DNA of 64,000 nucleotides from the NCBI GenBank assembly GCA_026705465.1, contig JAPPAP010000025.1, positions 1-64,000 on the forward strand, read 5' to 3'. This DNA is from a bacterium (GTDB lineage: Bacteria; Actinomycetota; Acidimicrobiia; Acidimicrobiales; Bin134). The position numbers and the translations under genes were made by a program. Shown here piece by piece: positions 40,880-57,044 of this stretch (position 1 is the first letter of the stretch; each line of letters begins with the position of its first letter). Under the pieces are notes generated by a model. The model was given only the letters and a program-made list of their open reading frames with translations, made no database searches and was not told the DNA's origin.

Positions 40880-42946
40880 TCAGGGCAGCAGCACCGCCCG
40901 GTTTCCATTGCCCCAGCATTCGATGGTTTGGTCGTCGCGTAGACCGCAGCTGTAGTTGTGGCCAGCGGTGATGGCGGTGAACATGCTGGAGGGTGCGTCG
41001 GTTTGTCCGCTGTGATTTTCACCCCAGCAGGTGACGGTTTGGTCTGACTTCAAGCCGCACGAATGATATGCCCCGGCGGTCACGGCTAGGAATTGGCCAG
41101 TGACGCTACCTGCCTGTCCATAAGCGTTAGCACCCCAGCATTCGATGGTTTGGTCGTCGCGTAGACCGCAGCTGTGGTTGTGGCCAGCGGTGATGGCGGT
41201 GAACAAGCTGGAGGGCGCGTCGGTTTGTCCGCTGTGATTTTCACCCCAGCAGGTGACGGTTTGGTCTGATTTCAAACCGCACGCATGAAAGACCCCAGAG
41301 GCCACCGCCAGGAATTGGCTCGGGGGTGGCTCCGCTTGTCCGAAGAAGGAGATGCCCCAGCATTCGATGGTTTGCTCGATGCGCAAGCCGCACGCATGAG
41401 AAGAACCGGTCGAGACCGAAGTGAACTCACCTTGCGGCACAAGATCCAGGCGGTTGTCCAATTCACCCCAGCATTCGATGGTTTGATCGACCTTCACCCC
41501 ACAGGTATTCCACGCGCCTGCATCTACGGCGATGAACTGGCCTGACGGCACGCTTGCCTGGCCATCGGTGTTGTCTCCCCAGCATACGGCGGTCTGGTTG
41601 GCACCGATTCCGCATGTATGAGAATCGAACGCGGAGATGGCGGTGAACTGGCCTGCGGGAGGGTCCGCCTGTCCCCCGAAGTTGTTTCCCCAGCACACTG
41701 CGGTTTGGTTGGCTCGGATTCCGCACGAGTGGTTAGCGCCGCTGTCAATGGCAACAAACCGTCCTAGAGGTGCATTCAATTGACTGAAACTGTTTGCACC
41801 CCAGCAGGCAACGGTTGCATCCAATCGCAACCCGCAAGTGTGATTTTCTCCAACCGCAACAGCGGTGAATTGGCCAGACGGTGCTTCTAGCACCCCGAAG
41901 ATGTCGACGCCCCAGCATTCGATGGTTTGATCGGCTCGCAGTCCACACGAGTGCAAGCCTCCGCTAGAAATGGCGGTGAACTGACCCGAAGGGGCACTCG
42001 TTCTCCCCTCTAATGAGTTGCCCCAGCAAGTGACGGTCTGATTCGGGCGCAGGCCGCAGGCGTAGTAGTGGCCAGTGGTGATCGCGGTGAACTGGCCGGA
42101 AGGTGCATCTAATGACCCCGCTAGGCTTTGTCCCCAGCAGATAGCGGTTTGGTCGAGTCGCAACCCACAGGTGTGAAAGCCTCCGGCATCGATGGCAGAT
42201 AACTGACCAGAAGGGGCGGACAGCGCCCAGTCAACTTCGGAACCCCAACAGACGGCGATATTGTTGGTGCGCAGACCGCATGTATGCCATCCGCCAGCGG
42301 AGATTTCGGTGAATTGTCCTGATGGCGCCTCCGCCTGCTGGTAGCCGTTGTGACCCCAGCAGATAGCGGATCGGTCAATTCGCAACCCGCACGAGTGTTC
42401 GTAGCCGGCGGTCATGACCGTGAATCGGTCTTTGGTCGAAGAATCTGTTTCCGGGGTTAGCGTCGGAATTGCGTGTGGGGTTGGTTCAGGTGTTGAGGCG
42501 GGTTCTGTGCCCGGAATGCGGGCTGGGGCCGGGTCTGGGGTCGGCAACGTCAAGGGTTCTGCATCGGTGGATAGCGCTTCAGCAGCCTGTTCTGAGGCTT
42601 GCTCTTGTGCTTCTAGTGGCGCTGGAGGCGTGGTAACGCCGCTGTCGGTTTCGGAAGGCCCTTCTTCTTGGGAGCTGCCGCCGTTCTCCGGCCGGGGGTT
42701 TGCGTCAAAGGTCTCATCGGTATCCAGGAACCGGGTTTCAAGCGGGGCTTCGCTGTTGTTGGCGATGGCCTGGACGCTGATGATGATGGCGGCGATCAGG
42801 GCGAGCACAGCGATGCTGGCGCCCAGCCGCTGGTTCCGCTGTCGCCGTCGGGCCCGGGCTCGAATGTCGCGGAGCGCGGGCTGGTCGAGGCGGATGCCTC
42901 CGGCTCTTCGGTCGAAGTGTTTTCTCAGTTCCTCGCTAATTCCCAT
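40880..42946 (-). CDS. Sigma-factor-linked membrane protein with RCC1-like repeats
   Basis: A 688-residue protein: a basic cytoplasmic N-terminus (1-40, with a run of Arg), one transmembrane helix (41-62), a Pro/Thr/Glu-rich linker (63-170) and 14 repeats of about 37 residues ending the chain. Each repeat has the pattern H-x-CGLR-x(7)-CWG, so paired cysteines recur throughout; the repeats resemble RCC1/BNR-type beta-propeller blades. It overlaps the ECF sigma gene by 11 bp. Position and topology suggest a regulator or anti-sigma-like sensor, but the short N-terminus lacks a recognisable zinc anti-sigma motif (HxxxCxxC). Confidence 0.82.
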   Translation of the reverse strand: MGISEELRKHFDRRAGGIRLDQPALRDIRARARRRQRNQRLGASIAVLALIAAIIISVQAIANNSEAPLETRFLDTDETFDANPRPENGGSSQEEGPSETDSGVTTPPAPLEAQEQASEQAAEALSTDAEPLTLPTPDPAPARIPGTEPASTPEPTPHAIPTLTPETDSSTKDRFTVMTAGYEHSCGLRIDRSAICWGHNGYQQAEAPSGQFTEISAGGWHTCGLRTNNIAVCWGSEVDWALSAPSGQLSAIDAGGFHTCGLRLDQTAICWGQSLAGSLDAPSGQFTAITTGHYYACGLRPNQTVTCWGNSLEGRTSAPSGQFTAISSGGLHSCGLRADQTIECWGVDIFGVLEAPSGQFTAVAVGENHTCGLRLDATVACWGANSFSQLNAPLGRFVAIDSGANHSCGIRANQTAVCWGNNFGGQADPPAGQFTAISAFDSHTCGIGANQTAVCWGDNTDGQASVPSGQFIAVDAGAWNTCGVKVDQTIECWGELDNRLDLVPQGEFTSVSTGSSHACGLRIEQTIECWGISFFGQAEPPPSQFLAVASGVFHACGLKSDQTVTCWGENHSGQTDAPSSLFTAITAGHNHSCGLRDDQTIECWGANAYGQAGSVTGQFLAVTAGAYHSCGLKSDQTVTCWGENHSGQTDAPSSMFTAITAGHNYSCGLRDDQTIECWGNGNRAVLLP
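40911..41354. repeat. Tandem 222-bp duplication within the RCC1-like gene
   Basis: The unit at 40911-41132 is repeated at 41133-41354. The first 150 bp or so differ at only about five positions, then the copies diverge. Each unit encodes two protein repeats (2 x 37 residues). This indicates recent expansion of the repeat domain. Confidence 0.85.
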
Positions 42947-46056: not shown

Positions 46057-46866
46057 ATGAAGCCCTATCCAACGCCACCCGAAGGCCTGCAAGTGGTCGT
46101 GGCGCCGCCGATCTTGACCCTCACCCTCGACCGTCCCCAGCGTCGCAATGCCCTGACTGACGACATCGTTCTGGCTCTGATCGACACCTTGGAAGCGGCC
46201 AGCGCCGATGAGGAGATCAGGGCGGTTCTGCTCAACGCTACCGGCGACAATTTTTGCAGTGGTTTCGACTTGGCCGGTCGCGCTGGCGACGGAATCCGGC
46301 CCCGGCCAGGCAGCATCTCCCGGCGCATGCCCTATCTGGTGAACCGGCTCATCCCGGTGATGCTGGAGGTGCAGGTACCCATTGTGTGCGCGGCACGGGG
46401 ATGGGCGGTGGGCCTGGGTCTCAGCCTGGTGCTGGCCTCGGACTTCGCGGTGGCGGCTGACGACGCCCGACTGCGGGCGCCATTCACGGCCATGGGCATC
46501 ACCCCCGACAGCGGAACCTCCTGGCTGCTGCCCCGGCTAGCCGGTGTGGCCCGAGCCAAGGGAATGCTGATGCTGGGCGAGGAAGTTTCCGGAGCAGAAG
46601 CGGCCGATTGGGGACTCATCTACCGGGCTGTGCCCCCCGACCGCGTCGATGCCGAGGTGGCTGCATTGACCGTTCGGCTGGCCTCATCGGCCACTGTGGC
46701 CGTCGGGCTAACCAAGACCCTCGTCCAGCGGGGCAGAGAACGCAGCCTGGAGGCCCACTTGAGCGAAGAGGCGTTTGCCATGGAGCTGTCGTCCCGCTCG
46801 GCCGACTTCCGAGAGTGGGCCTCGTCCCGCCAAGAAGACCGCCCCCCCGAATTCACCGGCCACTAA
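46057..46866 (+). CDS. Enoyl-CoA hydratase/isomerase family protein
   Basis: A 269-residue crotonase-fold enzyme. The CoA/oxyanion loop is GDNFCSGFDLAGR and the second is AARGWAVGLGLSLVLASDFA; the Asp-containing ITPDSGTSWLLPRLAG matches isomerase-like members. It starts 22 bp after the DM13 gene and ends 47 bp before the selenoprotein gene. Acyl substrate unknown. It differs clearly from the hydratase at 44358-45161, so it is not a recent duplicate. Confidence 0.9.
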   Translation: MKPYPTPPEGLQVVVAPPILTLTLDRPQRRNALTDDIVLALIDTLEAASADEEIRAVLLNATGDNFCSGFDLAGRAGDGIRPRPGSISRRMPYLVNRLIPVMLEVQVPIVCAARGWAVGLGLSLVLASDFAVAADDARLRAPFTAMGITPDSGTSWLLPRLAGVARAKGMLMLGEEVSGAEAADWGLIYRAVPPDRVDAEVAALTVRLASSATVAVGLTKTLVQRGRERSLEAHLSEEAFAMELSSRSADFREWASSRQEDRPPEFTGH

Positions 46867-46913: not shown

Positions 46914-47447
46914 ATGTTGGTATTGGATCCGACGGCGGCTCCGCCGGCAGTAGACCCAGATCGGGGCCCCGATGCCGGTCCGCTGACCGGCAAGCGAGTG
47001 GGCATCCGCTACGACCTCACTTGGCGCTCCTTCTTGTGGACCACCGACGAGTGGACCCGCAAACTAGAGGCGGCGGGGGCCGAGGTGGTGCCGTGGTGCT
47101 CTGAGTCCCGCCAAGACGTCAAGCTCGAGGACGCGGTGCTGGAGGAGCTGGAGAGCTTCGCCACCGACGTGGACATCGCCATCGTCGGCTTGGGCAATTG
47201 AGGCAGCTGCACGTCCTGGACCGTCCACGACGCAGTTGCGGTGGCGGCCCAGGACAAGACGGCGGTCGCCGTCGTAACCGAAGAGTTCGTGCCGCTAGCC
47301 GAGATCATGGCCCGCAATATGGAGCGGCCCGGCCTGCGGCTGTGTGTGCTGCCCTATCCGTTGGACACTCGTCCCGAACCCGAGGTACGCCAGATCGCAC
47401 TCGACTTCTGGGAGCAGCTGTTGGAATCGCTGGGAGTGCCGCACTAG
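46914..47447 (+). CDS. UGSC-motif selenoprotein (in-frame TGA read as selenocysteine)
   Basis: Reads as 95 residues, then TGA at 47199-47201, then 81 more residues in the same frame to TAG 47445-47447. Across the TGA the protein is GLGN-U-GSCTSWTVHDA, so selenocysteine (residue 96) begins a U-G-S-C motif, a redox motif by which a selenoprotein family is named. The part after the TGA is clearly coding (VAVVTEEFVPLAEIMARNM) and keeps codon bias. A SECIS-like hairpin starts 1 nt after the TGA. Total 177 residues. The next gene begins directly after its stop. Likely a thiol/selenol oxidoreductase or reductase subunit; the substrate is unknown. Standard annotation would truncate it at residue 95. 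Confidence 0.88.
47199..47239 (+). promoter_or_regulatory. Candidate bacterial SECIS element with UGA
   Basis: After UGA (47199-47201), GCAGCTGC at 47203-47210 pairs with GCAGTTGC at 47232-47239 (8 bp, one G-U). Inside, TGG(A) at 47217-47220 pairs with (T)CCA at 47224-47227, leaving a small apical loop with CCG and a G at 47223, about 22 nt after the UGA. Placement and a G-containing apical loop suit SelB recognition, though the bacterial SECIS consensus is loose. Confidence 0.7.
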
Positions 47448-48494
47448 ATGACCACTGACGGCGGCGCCACTCCTGAGGGACAGGTCGAAGCCCCCGATGA
47501 CCCGGTGGAATTCATGCGCTGGGCGACGGCACAGGGCTGGGGTGACGGTCTGCCGTTGATCCCGCCCACGCAAGAGCGGGTAGCCCAGTTCACTGCCGCC
47601 GCGGGCCGCCCGGCCGATTCGGTGTTGTTGGAGGTGCCGCCGGCCAACGCCTGGTGCACGGTGGAGAAACTGGCCGTCAACGCCTGCATGGCGGGAGCCT
47701 CTCCCGAGGCCATGCCGCTGATGATGGCCGCGCTGGAGGCCATGGCCGAGCGTCCGTTCGACCTGTTCGCCCTCAACACCACCACCAGTTCGGTGGTGCC
47801 CTGCCTGTTCGTGAACGGCCCGGCCCGCGATCGGCTGGACCTGCCCTATCAAGCTGGCTGCTTCGGCGGCGCGGCGGGGGCGGGACCGGCCGTCGGCCGG
47901 GCCATTCGGCTGGTGATGCGCAACGTGGGAGGTCAAGTGGCCGGGGAGACGTCCAAGTGTGTGTTGGGTCAACCCGCTCGGGTGGTGGGCTTGGTGATGG
48001 GGGAATGGGAGGAGCGATCGCCGTGGCCGCCGCTGGCCGAGCGCCGAGGGGTGAGCGGCGACGCGGTCACCGTCTACGGGACCATCGGCACCATGGACAT
48101 TGCCGACATCGCGGCCGACGACGGCCGCTCGCTGGCCTGGGTCATCGGCCAGTCGCTGGCCTATGTGGGCACCAACGCCTACATCTCCCACTGGGGGGCT
48201 GAGGTCATGGTGGTGGTGCCCCCGCCCTGGGCTGACATGCTGGCCGCCGCCTATCCGACCATCGAAGACGTGCAAGAGGCTCTGTGGCGAAATGCCTGCC
48301 ACCCGGTGGGCGACTTCCCCGATACCCACAAGCAGTGGCTGGCCGAGCGCGACCGGATCGGCCCCGACGGCACCGCCCACATCGTGGAGCAGCCCTCCGA
48401 CGTCATTGTGATGTGCGCTGGCGGCCTGGGCAACCTCCACGCCGGCGGCCTCCACAACTTCGGCCCCACCCGGGCCATCACCCGCCCGTTCTGA
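47448..48494 (+). CDS. UGSC-selenoprotein partner, uncharacterised
   Basis: A 348-residue soluble protein whose ATG follows the selenoprotein stop with no gap (TAGATG), so the two are one unit. I know no enzymatic function. Visible features are WGDGLPLIPPT near the start, conserved-looking Cys in NAWCTVEKL, NACMAGAS, SSVVPCLFVNGP, GCFGGAAGAG and SKCVLGQ, and a Gly-rich end (CAGGLGNLHAGGLHNFGPT). The number of cysteines suggests a redox or metal partner of the UGSC protein, as in multi-subunit selenoenzymes. thiN overlaps its stop by one base. Confidence 0.75.
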   Translation: MTTDGGATPEGQVEAPDDPVEFMRWATAQGWGDGLPLIPPTQERVAQFTAAAGRPADSVLLEVPPANAWCTVEKLAVNACMAGASPEAMPLMMAALEAMAERPFDLFALNTTTSSVVPCLFVNGPARDRLDLPYQAGCFGGAAGAGPAVGRAIRLVMRNVGGQVAGETSKCVLGQPARVVGLVMGEWEERSPWPPLAERRGVSGDAVTVYGTIGTMDIADIAADDGRSLAWVIGQSLAYVGTNAYISHWGAEVMVVVPPPWADMLAAAYPTIEDVQEALWRNACHPVGDFPDTHKQWLAERDRIGPDGTAHIVEQPSDVIVMCAGGLGNLHAGGLHNFGPTRAITRPF

Positions 48495-50765: not shown

Positions 50766-52151
50766 ATGAGCGAGATGTCACCCGCCGAGGTCAGGGAGCG
50801 GATCGACCACCCAGTGGTGGACAGCGACGGCCACTATTGGGAGCACTGGCCCGACTTGGACCGTTATGTGCGAGACGAGGGCATCAGCGAGGGTTTGAAC
50901 GCGTTGTGGGCCACGGGAACCTTCGACGGGAGTCCTCACTGGGCCGGGGTTGCCCCTGAAGAACGCCCCCGAGTTCGGCCGTTTCGCCAGACATGGTGGG
51001 GCGTCCCGTTCGCCAATACCGACGACCTGGCTGCCGCAATGGCCCCATCACTCATGTATCGCCGACTCGACGAGCTGGGCTTGGACCTGGCCGTCTGCTA
51101 TCCCACGTGGGGTCTGGTGGTTCCCAGCCAGCGCAACGACGAGATCCGCAGGGGGCTGTGCCGGGCCTGGAACCGCTACACCGCCGACGTGTATGACGGC
51201 TTCGGCGACCGGCTGGTGCCGGTGGCCACCATTCCCACCGCGACCCCTCAAGAAGCGGTGGCCGAATTGGACCACGCCGTGGTCGAATTGGGCTTCAAGG
51301 TGGTGATGCTGGGCGGCTTTGCGGTGCGAGATCTCGACAGCGGAGGCACCTGGATCGACTCGCTGGGCCTCGACAGCGCCTACGACTACGACCCGCTTTG
51401 GCAGCGGCTAGTGGAGCTTGGCGTGGTGGCCGGCTTCCACTCCGGGTCGATGGGGTGGAGCGGTCGGCGTTCCATCACCAACTTCTCCTACAACCACATG
51501 GGCAACTTCGCAGGGGCCAGCGAGGCCACCCTCAAGTCGCTCCTGTTCGGCGGCGTGCTCCACCGATTTCCCGACCTCCGGCTCAATTTTCTGGAGGGGG
51601 GCACAACCTGGGCGGTGCAGTTGGTGCACGACATGATCGGCCACTACCACAAGCGCGGCCCCGAGGGTCTGCCTGCCTACGACCCCGACGCCTTCGAACC
51701 CGACCGCTTCGACCAGTTGTTGGCCGAGCATGCCGGGGGGCTCAATCCTGAGCCCGGCTTCGGGGCCCAGTTCGCCGACTTCTTCCGTACTTCTGACGTG
51801 GTGAACGACTTCGAGGCGGCCGGCATTACCGGGCCTGATGATGTGATCCGCCAGATCTCGACTACCTGTTGGTTCGGGTGTGAGGCCGACGACCCCCTCA
51901 CCCGACTGGCCTTCGACCCGGAGCTCCCGGGGGGCGTCCCGTTGAACGCCGTCTTCAGCTCCGACATCGCCCACTGGGACGTGGCCAACATGGTCGACGT
52001 AATGCCCGAGGCCTATGAGCAGGTAGAGAACGGCTGGCTCGACGAGGAGCAGTTCCGGGCCTTCATGTGCGACAACGCAGTGCGGCTCTGCACCGGCGCC
52101 GACCCCAGCTTCTTCAAGGGCACGATCCTCGAGGACTACCAGCCGGCCTGA
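50766..52151 (+). CDS. Amidohydrolase family protein (Amidohydro_2)
   Basis: A 461-residue metal-dependent hydrolase. The first metal motif is VVDSDGHYWEHW; GFHSGSMGW supplies the next His, and VFSSDIAHWDV the late metal Asp. The VDSDGHY opening deviates from the DxH of the family by carrying D-S-D-G-H. It belongs with the amidohydrolase at 37944 to the same broad family but not the same subgroup (461 against 380 residues). It lies 74 bp before the first sulfatase on the same strand. Confidence 0.87.
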   Translation: MSEMSPAEVRERIDHPVVDSDGHYWEHWPDLDRYVRDEGISEGLNALWATGTFDGSPHWAGVAPEERPRVRPFRQTWWGVPFANTDDLAAAMAPSLMYRRLDELGLDLAVCYPTWGLVVPSQRNDEIRRGLCRAWNRYTADVYDGFGDRLVPVATIPTATPQEAVAELDHAVVELGFKVVMLGGFAVRDLDSGGTWIDSLGLDSAYDYDPLWQRLVELGVVAGFHSGSMGWSGRRSITNFSYNHMGNFAGASEATLKSLLFGGVLHRFPDLRLNFLEGGTTWAVQLVHDMIGHYHKRGPEGLPAYDPDAFEPDRFDQLLAEHAGGLNPEPGFGAQFADFFRTSDVVNDFEAAGITGPDDVIRQISTTCWFGCEADDPLTRLAFDPELPGGVPLNAVFSSDIAHWDVANMVDVMPEAYEQVENGWLDEEQFRAFMCDNAVRLCTGADPSFFKGTILEDYQPA

Positions 52152-52225
52152 GCTCCACCCCGTCGAGGAAGGGCGGCGCCTCGTAGCAAGTGCCGTATTG
52201 TGTCGGCGGATCACTGGGAGGATTC

Positions 52226-54544
52226 ATGACCGATCAGCGCCAGCAGGAGCACTATCCAGGGTTTGGGGGCACGGTAGGGAAGATCATGGCCACCTCCGAG
52301 TCGTGGTGGCCGCCCCGCCCGACGCCTCCGGCCGGCGCCCCCAACATCGTGGTCGTGCTGGCCGACGATATGGGCTACTCCGACGTGGGTTGCTACGGCT
52401 CGGAAATCGCCACGCCGGCCATCGACGAACTGGCCGCTACCGGAGTTCGTTACACCAACTTCCATGTCACCCCGTTGTGCTCGCCCACCCGGGCCGCGTT
52501 GTTGACCGGGCTCAATTCCCATCACGTTGGCGTAGGGTTCGTGGCCAACGCCGATCCCGGCTTCCCCGGCTACGCCAGCGAGTTACCTCACAACCAGTCG
52601 ACGCTGGCCGAGATGCTCAAGGCGAGTGGCTACGCCACCATGGCGGTGGGCAAGTGGCACCTGTGCAAGGAAACCGACCTGTCGATCGCCGGCGACAACC
52701 ACTCCTGGCCCCTCCAGCGGGGCTTCGACCAGTACTACGGGTTCATGGAGGCCCTCACCAACTTCCACCACCCCCACTTGATGTACGAGGGGAACAGCCC
52801 CATCGACATCGCCGAATACCCCGAGGGGTACTACCTCACCGACGATCTCACCGACCGGGCCTGTCGCATGATCCGCGAGGTCAAGGCCACAGATCCCGAC
52901 AAGCCATTCTTTTTGTACTACGCCCATGGGGCCGTCCACGCCCCGCTACACGCCAAGGCCGATGACATCGCCCGCCACCGAGGCAACTACGACAAGGGCT
53001 GGGACCAACTGAGAGAAGAGCGCCTGGCCCGCCAGATCGAGCTGGGGGTAGTACCACCGGGCACCGAACTGCCCCCTCGGAACTTCGAGCCCGACGAGGA
53101 CGTGGCCGCCTGGGACAGCTACCCCGAGGGCGAGCGCCGGGTCATGGCCCGCTACATGGAGGTGTACGCCGCCATGGTGGAGTCGATCGATGACAGCGTG
53201 GCCCGCATTCGGGCCGAGTTGGAGGCCATCGGCCAGCTCGACAACACCATCTTCGTGTTCACCAGCGACAACGGGGCGTCTCGAGAGGGGCGGGCCCAGG
53301 GAACCATCTCGTACTTTACCTACAGCAACCCGGGAGCGATGTCGTCGGCGTCGGTGGGCGAAGAGGAGATGGACGCCCTCGACGCCATCGGCGGCCCCAC
53401 CACCTGGCCCCATTACCCCCGGGGCTGGGCCATGGCCTGTAATACCCCCTTCCGGCTCTACAAGATCACCTCCTATCGGGGTGGCCACTCGGTGCCGTTC
53501 GTGCTGTCGTGGCCGGCTCGCACCGCGGCGGTGGGCGGGGAGCTGCGCCACCAGTACGCCCACATCATCGACCTGCTGCCCACCTTGTCGGAGCTGGTGG
53601 GGGTGGATGTACCCACCGAGCGCCACGGGCTGGAGTCGGAGAGTCCCGACGGGGTGTCGTTCGCGGCCTCGCTCCAAGATCCCGACGTCGCCTCTGAACG
53701 CATCGAGCAGTACTACGAGTGCATCGGCCACCGGGCCTTCTACCGGGATGGCTGGGCGGCGGCTGCCTTTCACGAGTTCATGACCCCGTTCAGCACCGAC
53801 CGCTGGGAGCTGTTCAACCTGGAGGAGGATCTCAACGAGCGGGTCGACTTGGCTGAGGCCGAGCCCGAGAAGCTGGCCGAGCTGGTGGAGGCCTGGGAAC
53901 AGGCCGCCTGGCGCAACCGGGTCTTCCCCCTCGACGAGGGCACCGGTCTGTACCGCCTGCTCCGGCCGGCCGAGCACGAGCTGCTTACCCGAGAGCTGCA
54001 GATTCTGCCCGGCACGCCCACCGTTGAGCGCTACCGGGCCTCCCGGGTCATTGCCGGGGGCAACTTCACCGTCACCGTCGACCTCGACCACCAACCGGGT
54101 GACCAGGGCGTGCTGGTGGCTCACGGCGGTCAGGCATCGGGCTATGTGCTCTACGTCGAAAACGGAGAGCTGCACTTCGAGGTGAACAGCGGCGGCCAGC
54201 CCATGGTGTTCGACCCCATGGCGTTGCCGGGGGAGTGCCAACAAATCGTTCTCGATGTCCAAGCCCCGGGCGGCCGCATCTGGAACATCTCGGTGAGCGC
54301 CGACGGCCAAACCGGCATCACAGCCACAGAAATCCCCCAGATCTACGGCTTCATCCCGTGGGAGGGCATCGATGTCGGCGTCGACCGCCGGTCCCCGGTG
54401 TCGTGGCAGCTCCATCAGCGCCACGGCTCCTTCCCTTACACCGGCACCATTCACCAAGTGACCTACGTCCCCGGCCCCCCCGCCCCCGACACCGAAGAAG
54501 TCCGCCTCGCCGAGCTCCGCGAAATCGGAATGGCCCTCGAATAA
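52226..54544 (+). CDS. Arylsulfatase, first of a tandem pair
   Basis: A 772-residue type I sulfatase like the large mycobacterial AtsA/AtsD group. The metal Asp pair is in [11 protein letters not shown]; the formylglycine motif is [11 protein letters not shown] with Cys85; GKWHL and TSDNGAS complete the site. A C-terminal beta-sandwich (about 610-772) follows. There is no signal peptide, so cytoplasmic. Cys85 needs a formylglycine-generating enzyme, none of which is in the window. ATG 52226 has GGGAGG upstream. It should release sulfate from organic sulfate esters. Confidence 0.93.
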
Positions 54545-54657: not shown

Positions 54658-54719
54658 GCCGGGGGATGGTTAACCGGATGGTGCCAAGCACTACCGTCGC
54701 ACACGACCAAGGGGGACAG

Positions 54720-57044
54720 ATGACTGATCAGCGCCAGCAGGAGCACTATCCCGGATTCGGGGGCAAGATCGGCCGCATTATCGCCACCTCCGAGTCATGG
54801 TGGCCGCCCAAGCCCATGCCGCCGGCCGATGCTCCCAACGTGGTGATAGTTCTGGCCGACGATCTGGGCTTCTCCGATCTGGGCTGCTACGGCTCGGAGA
54901 TTCCCACTCCAGCCATCGACGCGATGGCCGCCACCGGTGTCCGCTACACCAACTTCCACGTCACCCCGCTGTGCTCGCCTACCCGGGCGGCGCTGTTGAC
55001 CGGGCTCAACTCCCATCACGCGGGCATGGGATTCGTGGCCAACGCCAATCCTGGCTTTCCTGGCTATGCCGGCGAGCTGCCCCCCAACCAGTCGACGCTG
55101 GCCGAGATGCTGCGGGCCAACGGCTACTCCACAATGGCGGTGGGCAAGTGGCATCTTTGTTTGGAGTCCGACCTGTCTGTGGCTGGGGACACCCACTCGT
55201 GGCCGTTGCAGCGGGGTTTCGACCAGTACTACGGGTTCTTGGAGGCCCTGACCGATTTCCATTTCCCCCACCTGCTCTACGAGGGCAACAACCCTGTCCA
55301 CATCGACCAGTACCCGGAGGGCTACTACCTCACCGACGATCTCACCGATCGGGCCTGCCGCATGATCCGCGACGTCAAGACCACTGATCCCGACAAGCCG
55401 TTCTTCTTGTATTACGCCCACGGGGCGGTCCATGCCCCGCTGCACGCCAAAGCCGAGGACACGGCCCGCCATCGGGGCAACTACGACAAAGGCTGGGACC
55501 AGCTCCGCGAGGAGCGTCTGGCCCGCCAGAAGGAGTTGGGCATCGTACCGCCCGACGCCCAACTGCCTCCCCGCAATACCGAGCCCAACGAGGACGTGCG
55601 GGCATGGGACAGCTACCCCGAACCCGACCGCCGGGTCATGGCCCGCTATATGGAGGTGTACGCCGCCATGGTGGAGTCGATCGACGACAGCGTGGCCCGC
55701 ATCTCAGCCGAGCTTGAAGCCCTCGGCCAGCTCGACAACACCATCTTCGTGTTCACCAGCGACAACGGCGCATCCCGCGAGGGCCGAGCCCAGGGCAGCA
55801 CCTCGTATTTCACCCACAGCGGCACCGGAGCCCGGCCCTCGCCACCAGTGAGCGAATTCGAGTTGGAGGCTCTCGAGGCCGACGCCATTGGCGGTCCCAC
55901 CACTTGGCCGCACTATCCCCGGGGCTGGGCCATGGCCTGCAATACCCCCTTCCGGCTGTACAAGATCACCGCTCACCGGGGCGGCCATTCGGTGCCCATG
56001 GTGCTGTCGTGGCCGGCCCGCACCGAGGCGATCGGCGGGGAATTGCGCCATCAGTACACCCACATCACCGACCTGCTGCCCACCTTGGCCGATCTCTTGG
56101 GCCTAGACGTGCTTACCGAGCGCCACGGTCAGGCCTCAGACGCTCCCGACGGGGTGTCGTTTGCCGACTCCCTGGATGATCCCAACGCCCCCTCCGATCA
56201 CACCGAGCAGTACATCGAGTGCATCGGCCACCGGGGCATCTACCGCGACGGCTGGTCGGCGGCCATTTTCCACGAACATCACACCCCGTTCAGCTCCGAC
56301 CGCTGGGAGTTGTTCAACCTGGCCGACGATTTCAACGAGCGCAATGACCTGGCCGACGCCGAGCCCGAGAAGCTGGCCGAGCTGGTCGAGGCATGGGAGG
56401 AGGCCGCCTGGCGCAACCGGGTCTTCCCTCTCGATGAGGCCTCTGGTCTGTTCCGCACGGTGAAGCCGCCCGAGCACGCCAAGCTGACTCGGGAGATGCG
56501 CATTCTGCCCGGATCGCCCACGGTGGAGCGATTGCGATCGTCCCGGCTCATCGCCGGCGGCAACTTCACCGTCGTAGTCGACTTGCACCACCGCCCCGGC
56601 GACCAGGGCGTGCTGGTGGCCCACGGTAGCCAGGCATCGGGCTATGTGCTCTACATCGAGAACGACGCCGTGTGTTTCGTGGTCAACAGCTCTGGCCGGT
56701 ACCTGATGGCCGATCCCATGGAACTGCCGGGGGAGTGCCGGCAGGTGGTGGTCGATGTCCAAGCCCCCGGCGGCCGCATCTGGAACGTCTCAGTGAGCGC
56801 CGACGGCCAAGTTGGGACCTCGCTCTCCGACATCCCTCAGATGATCGGCTTTCTGCCTTGGCAGGGCATCGATGTCGGCCTAAATCGGCGTTCTCCGGTG
56901 TCGTGGGACATCTACCAGCGCCACGGCACCTTCCCCTACACCGGCACCATCCACCAAGTCACCTACACCCCCGGCCCCCCGGCCCCCGACGCCGACGACG
57001 TTCTCCTAGAAGAATTTCGCGAATTCGGCATGGCCCTGGAGTAG
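54720..57044 (+). CDS. Arylsulfatase, second of a tandem pair
   Basis: A 774-residue sulfatase close to its neighbour along the whole length (same start [15 protein letters not shown], same [11 protein letters not shown] with Cys85, same C-terminal domain). Differences concentrate around residues 370-390 and in the C-terminal sandwich (for example VCFVVNSSGRYL against [12 protein letters not shown]), hinting at a different substrate. ATG 54720 follows GGGGGACAG. The stop directly abuts the stop of the convergent third sulfatase. Confidence 0.93.
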   Translation: MTDQRQQEHYPGFGGKIGRIIATSESWWPPKPMPPADAPNVVIVLADDLGFSDLGCYGSEIPTPAIDAMAATGVRYTNFHVTPLCSPTRAALLTGLNSHHAGMGFVANANPGFPGYAGELPPNQSTLAEMLRANGYSTMAVGKWHLCLESDLSVAGDTHSWPLQRGFDQYYGFLEALTDFHFPHLLYEGNNPVHIDQYPEGYYLTDDLTDRACRMIRDVKTTDPDKPFFLYYAHGAVHAPLHAKAEDTARHRGNYDKGWDQLREERLARQKELGIVPPDAQLPPRNTEPNEDVRAWDSYPEPDRRVMARYMEVYAAMVESIDDSVARISAELEALGQLDNTIFVFTSDNGASREGRAQGSTSYFTHSGTGARPSPPVSEFELEALEADAIGGPTTWPHYPRGWAMACNTPFRLYKITAHRGGHSVPMVLSWPARTEAIGGELRHQYTHITDLLPTLADLLGLDVLTERHGQASDAPDGVSFADSLDDPNAPSDHTEQYIECIGHRGIYRDGWSAAIFHEHHTPFSSDRWELFNLADDFNERNDLADAEPEKLAELVEAWEEAAWRNRVFPLDEASGLFRTVKPPEHAKLTREMRILPGSPTVERLRSSRLIAGGNFTVVVDLHHRPGDQGVLVAHGSQASGYVLYIENDAVCFVVNSSGRYLMADPMELPGECRQVVVDVQAPGGRIWNVSVSADGQVGTSLSDIPQMIGFLPWQGIDVGLNRRSPVSWDIYQRHGTFPYTGTIHQVTYTPGPPAPDADDVLLEEFREFGMALE

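Follow-up and report, generated by a model that had tools for sequence, protein, structure and literature searches.

A UGSC-family selenoprotein gene of an Acidimicrobiales bacterium, with an apparently near-obligate partner gene and a probable remote relationship to GrdB/PrdB

In a stretch of 64,000 nucleotides (the window) from an Acidimicrobiales genome, the evidence supports a genuine selenoprotein gene whose in-frame TGA is a real selenocysteine (Sec) codon, and the preliminary description of this gene was essentially right in its interpretation. By sequence comparison, the gene immediately downstream is a near-obligate partner of the family. UGSC is already a published family, named 'UGSC-containing protein' in the GOS selenoproteome (PMC2398784) and 'UGSC family (seleno)protein' in NF041046, and the window gene is another member, not in itself new. 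Among aquatic selenoprotein families UGSC is one of the commonest, and no function has been assigned to it in the open-access literature examined. The near-obligate partner, the predicted fold and the homology to GrdB/PrdB are the first concrete handles that we found for testing its function; in open-access text we found no description of the partner, of the number of copies or of the link to GrdB/PrdB. The features of the window that concern this locus are as follows.

46057 to 46866, plus strand: enoyl-CoA hydratase/isomerase gene (PF00378, 145.5 bits), directly upstream of the UGSC gene
46914 to 47447, plus strand: gene of the UGSC selenoprotein family, encoding 177 aa with Sec as residue 96, called from the PF24696 match, TGA paralogues, TGA-keeping orthologues and an AF2 model
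47199 to 47201, plus strand: in-frame TGA, codon 96, read as Sec and opening the U-G-S-C motif, with Cys99 as the presumed partner residue
47203 to 47239, plus strand: outer stem of the SECIS-like hairpin
47213 to 47231, plus strand: SECIS-like apical hairpin, 11 nt after the TGA, with 7 of 8 register pairs and the loop CCG
47448 to 48494, plus strand: partner protein gene, 348 aa, GWxDGLPxxPPT family, beginning at the very next base after the UGSC stop codon

The frame opens with the ATG at 46914, meets the TGA as codon 96 and continues for 81 codons to the TAG at 47445-47447, giving 177 residues and the motif GLGN-U-GSC-TSW across the TGA; on all of these points, coordinates included, the preliminary description was exact. 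It had also stated that the gene appears as two fragments without recoding, and table 11 indeed yields two ORFs, one of 95 aa and a 68-aa remnant starting with GTG. The product read through the TGA matches the Pfam UGSC family (PF24696) with 102.5 bits against a curated cut-off of 25 bits, and the match spans the TGA (residues 3-174, profile positions 2-171 of 172), in agreement with the earlier assignment to the UGSC selenoprotein group. The score against NCBIfam NF041046 (UGSC_fam, an equivalog) was 65.7 bits, under the NCBI cut-off of 125. Judged from these profiles, the window protein is a UGSC family member by the Pfam rule and a relative of NF041046, not an equivalog by the NCBI rule. 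Position 96 (Cys in the alignment, Sec here), G97 and C99 are invariant among 40 sequences, all within the U/C-G-S-C motif. The window gene is like the GOS family, with 255 Sec and 21 Cys forms and a prominent place in aquatic samples (PMC2398784), in its whole-length match, its UGSC motif and the great excess of Sec over Cys. Because standard gene calling splits such TGA-containing genes in two, misannotation threatens all six UGSC copies in this genome as well as most of the 182 UGSC hits found across 99 related genomes.

The reading across the TGA goes well beyond what chance would give. Six UGSC genes are present in the genome assembly (3.11 Mb, 95.7% complete), and TGA occurs in frame just once in each of them, always as the first codon of U-G-S/A-C; these six paralogues in one genome may be compared with the 26 and 33 listed for the UGSC family in a table of PMC5029168, which we read as organisms and proteins. 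UGSC was found in 55 of the 99 genomes of the order, this genome included, and at the Sec column 61 of the 65 distinct loci sampled carry TGA, with TGT in two and TGC in two. The search for homologues aligned across the TGA, proposed as a check in the preliminary description, thus recovered them, Cys-codon homologues exactly at the TGA position among them. In one genome of the set (G073), UGSC copies carry Cys codons and tRNA-Sec scores stay at background level. All 16 same-lineage orthologue hits of the window copy, in which one genome is counted twice (L097 = L163), keep the TGA. Codon differences after it are 12-19 synonymous versus 4-7 non-synonymous, and such mostly synonymous change is the pattern of a translated protein.

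Two simpler explanations of the TGA can be weighed against these data. The first, also raised in the preliminary description, is a sequencing error for TGC or TGG, to which the existence of Cys homologues with TGT or TGC lends some plausibility; however, TGA stands at the same codon in 61 distinct loci, in the six paralogues and, across separate assemblies, in every orthologue, which refutes the error and leaves it with a negligible probability. The second takes the TGA for a true stop codon, or for a nonsense mutation that left the frame intact; the 3' half would then be either a relic or a 68-aa protein with a start of its own. The two ORFs under table 11 and the absence of a complete tRNA-Sec from the assembly agree with it, but it is refuted in practice by the retention of the TGA in all 16 orthologue hits, whose codons beyond it differ mostly synonymously, by the six paralogues with TGA at the same codon, by the Cys-codon homologues aligned at this position and by the presence of selA, selB and selD, and we consider it very improbable. 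None of the outcomes named in the preliminary description as refuting it was borne out. Taken together, the sequence comparisons indicate that Sec is almost certainly inserted at the UGA.

The preliminary description had reasoned that the organism must possess SelA, SelB, SelD and tRNA-Sec. Genes for the three proteins were found on contigs C3 and C19 of the assembly, and tRNA-Sec only as a 3' part at the start of contig C3.

C3, 16273 to 17322: selA, 330 bits
C3, 17435 to 19129: selB, 271 bits, adjoining selA
C19, 53941 to 54885: selD, 356 bits, with an in-frame TGA of its own at GAG-U-AGK

The selD product (L024) is itself a predicted selenoprotein, with a strong hairpin after the TGA in GAG-U-AGK. 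A complete tRNA-Sec gene (selC) is absent from the 95.7%-complete assembly: the Rfam tRNA-Sec search of the whole genome returned, below the cut-off, only tRNAs for Ser, Leu, Thr, Trp and Tyr, and a tRNA-Sec pattern built on the E. coli-like CTTCAAATC found no match in the genome because the arm here is CTTCAAAGC. The 3' part was located by comparing the 3-kb tRNA-Sec region of a relative with this genome. Contig C3 starts at tRNA-Sec position 42 and over its first 54 bases agrees fully (54/54) with the 3' part of the relative's tRNA, and Rfam reports a 5'-truncated tRNA-Sec at C3:1-51. Most members of the genus have a complete tRNA-Sec, and those of the relatives score about 67 bits with the anticodon TCA. 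The stretch upstream of the tRNA, 83-96% identical between relatives, also has no syntenic match in this genome, which together with the 3' part at the start of C3 fits an assembly gap, the simplest reading of the missing 5' part of selC. Alternatively, C3:1-53 could be an attachment-site remnant, a reading under which a tRNA-Sec would likewise have to lie at another place in the genome. At C3:1-53 and around position 1594 of L053, L039 and L061, members of the genus share sequence up to the tRNA-Sec 3' end, several diverge right after it and some assemblies likewise break at this point; mobile DNA may use tRNA-Sec as a site of integration.

The Sec trait had been called unusual in actinobacteria, which does not hold for this actinobacterial order, where it is common. 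UGSC selenoproteins in Actinobacteria are also on record from Geodermatophilaceae, with a tRNA-Sec of anticodon CUA (PMC5330540); both are actinobacterial UGSC selenoproteins, but the codon here is UGA and the anticodon in the relatives is TCA.

An 8-pair hairpin lies in one register across the UGSC family, 11 nt 3' of the TGA, with a mean of 6.69 of 8 pairs, a figure drawn from 58 related sequences that do not amount to 58 independent tests. Synonymous recodings of the same proteins gave 4.59 +/- 0.16 pairs (300 trials, maximum 5.05), sliding the register along the family sequences gave at most 4.52, and UGSC genes with a Cys codon form 3-5 pairs. On these comparisons the family hairpin is not explained by the protein sequence. 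The window hairpin with its 7 of 8 pairs is matched by 22% of synonymous shuffles and is, taken alone, not unusual for its protein. The 42-mer of the window folds at -20.3 kcal/mol (z -2.82), the 19-nt hairpin alone at -5.3 kcal/mol and the hairpin with its outer stem at -18.7. A published model of bacterial SECIS elements specifies an upper stem of 4-16 bp, an apical loop of 3-9 nt lying 16-37 nt from the UGA, a minimum free energy of at most -7.5 and a G as the first or second base of that loop (PMC13188914). The window hairpin follows the rules on stem, loop size, spacing and energy (7 bp with one mismatch, a 3-nt loop, 19 nt from UGA to loop) and departs from the loop rule of PMC13188914, the G of its CCG being third; G is first in the loop in 48 of the 58 family hairpins.

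The gene at 47448-48494 gave no match to Pfam, NCBIfam or PDB sequences. A homologue of it, detected by tblastn and HMM, adjoins UGSC on the same strand at 45 of 47 loci, upstream in 30 and downstream in 15, with a spacing within 250 bases at 44 of the 45 and of about 1.1 kb at one; among the two exceptions to adjacency is L105, which lies at a contig end. All six UGSC genes of the window's genome have the partner beside them. In a relative, a Cys form (L106) holds UGSC and partner in one 710-aa frame. Across the 99 genomes, 53 have both families, two UGSC only, one the partner only and 43 neither (Fisher p 2e-24, a value inflated by kinship of the genomes); outside the genus the corresponding counts are 34, 2, 1 and 40, and the copy numbers of the two families are correlated with a Spearman coefficient of 0.975. 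Apart from the partner no neighbour family recurs, the commonest Pfam families matching no more than 5 of the 114 neighbour proteins, and the adjacency is kept through reversals of gene order and amid diverse unrelated neighbours, which argues for a two-protein unit. The linkage makes it very likely that UGSC and partner act together, presumably as a physical complex. In the GOS data UGSC was found fused to a conserved unnamed domain, 'Unknown_1' (PMC2398784), which may be likened to the partner in the light of the single frame of L106; 'Unknown_1' is probably the partner family, judging from the shared fusion to UGSC. The genome with L106 (G033) has 10 UGSC hits and 9 partner hits, this Cys-codon fusion included, which suggests that the module is strongly expanded there.

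The AF2 model of the partner reaches a pLDDT of 89, and structural comparison gave no confident match for it (TM 0.25). Relationships to the Toblerone fold or to fumarase were rejected, the Foldseek hits being weak (TM 0.2-0.28), as was a relationship to GrdE (hhalign 0.2%). Cys84, in the motif MAGC, is near-invariant among partner homologues; the window partner and its ortholog at L097 have Ala in its place, and the window copy may have changed in function.

The AF2 model of the UGSC protein (pLDDT 91, pTM 0.85) shows alternating strands and helices, with Sec96 between the strand 88-94 and the helix 97-111. The best Foldseek matches were flavodoxin-like oxidoreductases (TM about 0.5), with no thioredoxin among the matches listed, and the fold is predicted from this model to be flavodoxin/Rossmann-like, not thioredoxin-like, whereas a Trx-like fold was proposed in PMC2398784. 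Profile comparison by hhalign detected a GrdB/PrdB-like profile with 93.5% probability and E 2.3e-7, the Sec column lying on the Sec column, over 81 columns and with a template of 8 sequences; the reversed-template control gave E 0.12. The aligned part corresponds to the C-terminal ~90 residues of GrdB/PrdB (PF07355; subunits of glycine-sarcosine-betaine and D-proline reductases), and the two share a strand, U-x-x-C/G, a helix, '(E)xAGIPT' and a further strand; the N-terminal part of GrdB is lacking in UGSC (177 aa). In the Pfam search with E up to 1 the window protein was reported for UGSC alone, its similarity to GrdB/PrdB falling short of the PF07355 cut-off. From the profile alignment, UGSC appears to be remotely homologous to the C-terminal, Sec-containing domain of GrdB/PrdB. 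The GrdB/PrdB-like proteins of relatives also carry a TGA after a strand-like stretch. In the window's own genome, a PrdB-like frame (C21:32970-33389, L146; C-terminal part of PF07355) stops at a TGA in ...DVAILTPV-U-PLCTR... and continues just beyond; it is predicted to be a further selenoprotein gene, probably split by gene callers. Unlike in GrdB/PrdB systems, no GrdE (PF09338) was found in this genome and the constant partner bears no relation to GrdE. Because of this, and because the partner lacks a confident structural match, the data give no support for likening it to the pyruvoyl half of glycine reductase.

A working UGSC selenoprotein forming a GrdB/PrdB-like unit with its partner is, as a whole, the explanation that we hold likely. 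SelB and Sec-tRNA would decode the UGA at the SECIS-like hairpin 11 nt downstream, the charged tRNA being supplied by SelA, SelD and tRNA-Sec. The UGSC product and the neighbouring partner (47448-48494) would together make up a two-protein unit. To this UGSC would contribute a small domain of flavodoxin/Rossmann-like fold, in which Sec96 sits at the N-terminus of the helix that follows strand three and Cys99 lies a turn further along. Sec96 would most likely serve as the catalytic selenolate, the attacking or reducing group, and Cys99 would resolve it, a Sec96-Cys99 selenenylsulfide forming during turnover, while the partner, by analogy, would bind or position the substrate. In GrdB the Sec motif hands a substrate-derived group to GrdA (PMC13188914); a similar nucleophilic or reductive Sec chemistry in UGSC is a possibility to which we give slightly less than even chances. 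The outcome would be a GrdB/PrdB-like reductase whose copies handle different substrates, a division of labour that we infer.

A competing explanation makes UGSC a general thiol/selenol oxidoreductase, thioredoxin-like in function, with the partner as a disulfide substrate or scaffold and not a substrate-binding subunit. The resemblance of U-x-x-C to redox motifs, the 'likely Trx-like fold' of PMC2398784 and the near-invariant Cys84 of the partner are consistent with it; however, the predicted fold is parallel and flavodoxin/Rossmann-like with no thioredoxin among the matches listed, Cys84 is Ala in the window partner and in its ortholog L097, and the profile homology points to GrdB/PrdB, and we judge this explanation rather unlikely. 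For the GrdB/PrdB-like unit, a broader proposal can be offered only tentatively: UGSC and partner might represent an unrecognised class of two-subunit selenoenzymes, in which a stand-alone GrdB/PrdB-type Sec domain works with an otherwise unknown substrate-binding protein family that replaces the pyruvoyl subunit. The class would have multiplied and diversified in marine, presumably aerobic Actinomycetota to act on a range of organic substrates by cleavage or reduction.

The surroundings of UGSC genes are mixed and catabolic, with monooxygenases, enoyl-CoA hydratases and CoA transferases, and the only hint they give is of the breakdown of organic compounds. The enoyl-CoA hydratase family of the gene upstream in the window occurs at only 4 of the 114 neighbour proteins scanned and is not a constant neighbour. 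Orthologues of the partner at 86-94% are found in Acidimicrobiia MAGs, including Candidatus Poriferisocius aerobius (Acidimicrobiales), and the host is probably a marine actinobacterium associated with sponges, the association being suggested by that name. At 40880-42946 on the minus strand, the window encodes a eukaryotic-like protein of 688 aa with many RCC1-like repeats (CGLR...CWG...GQ...P.G.F), which could fit a host-associated lifestyle. Further along the window, two arylsulfatase-like genes that are 78% identical to each other lie in tandem (52190-54544 and 54693-57041), adjoined by an amidohydrolase gene at 50766-52151.
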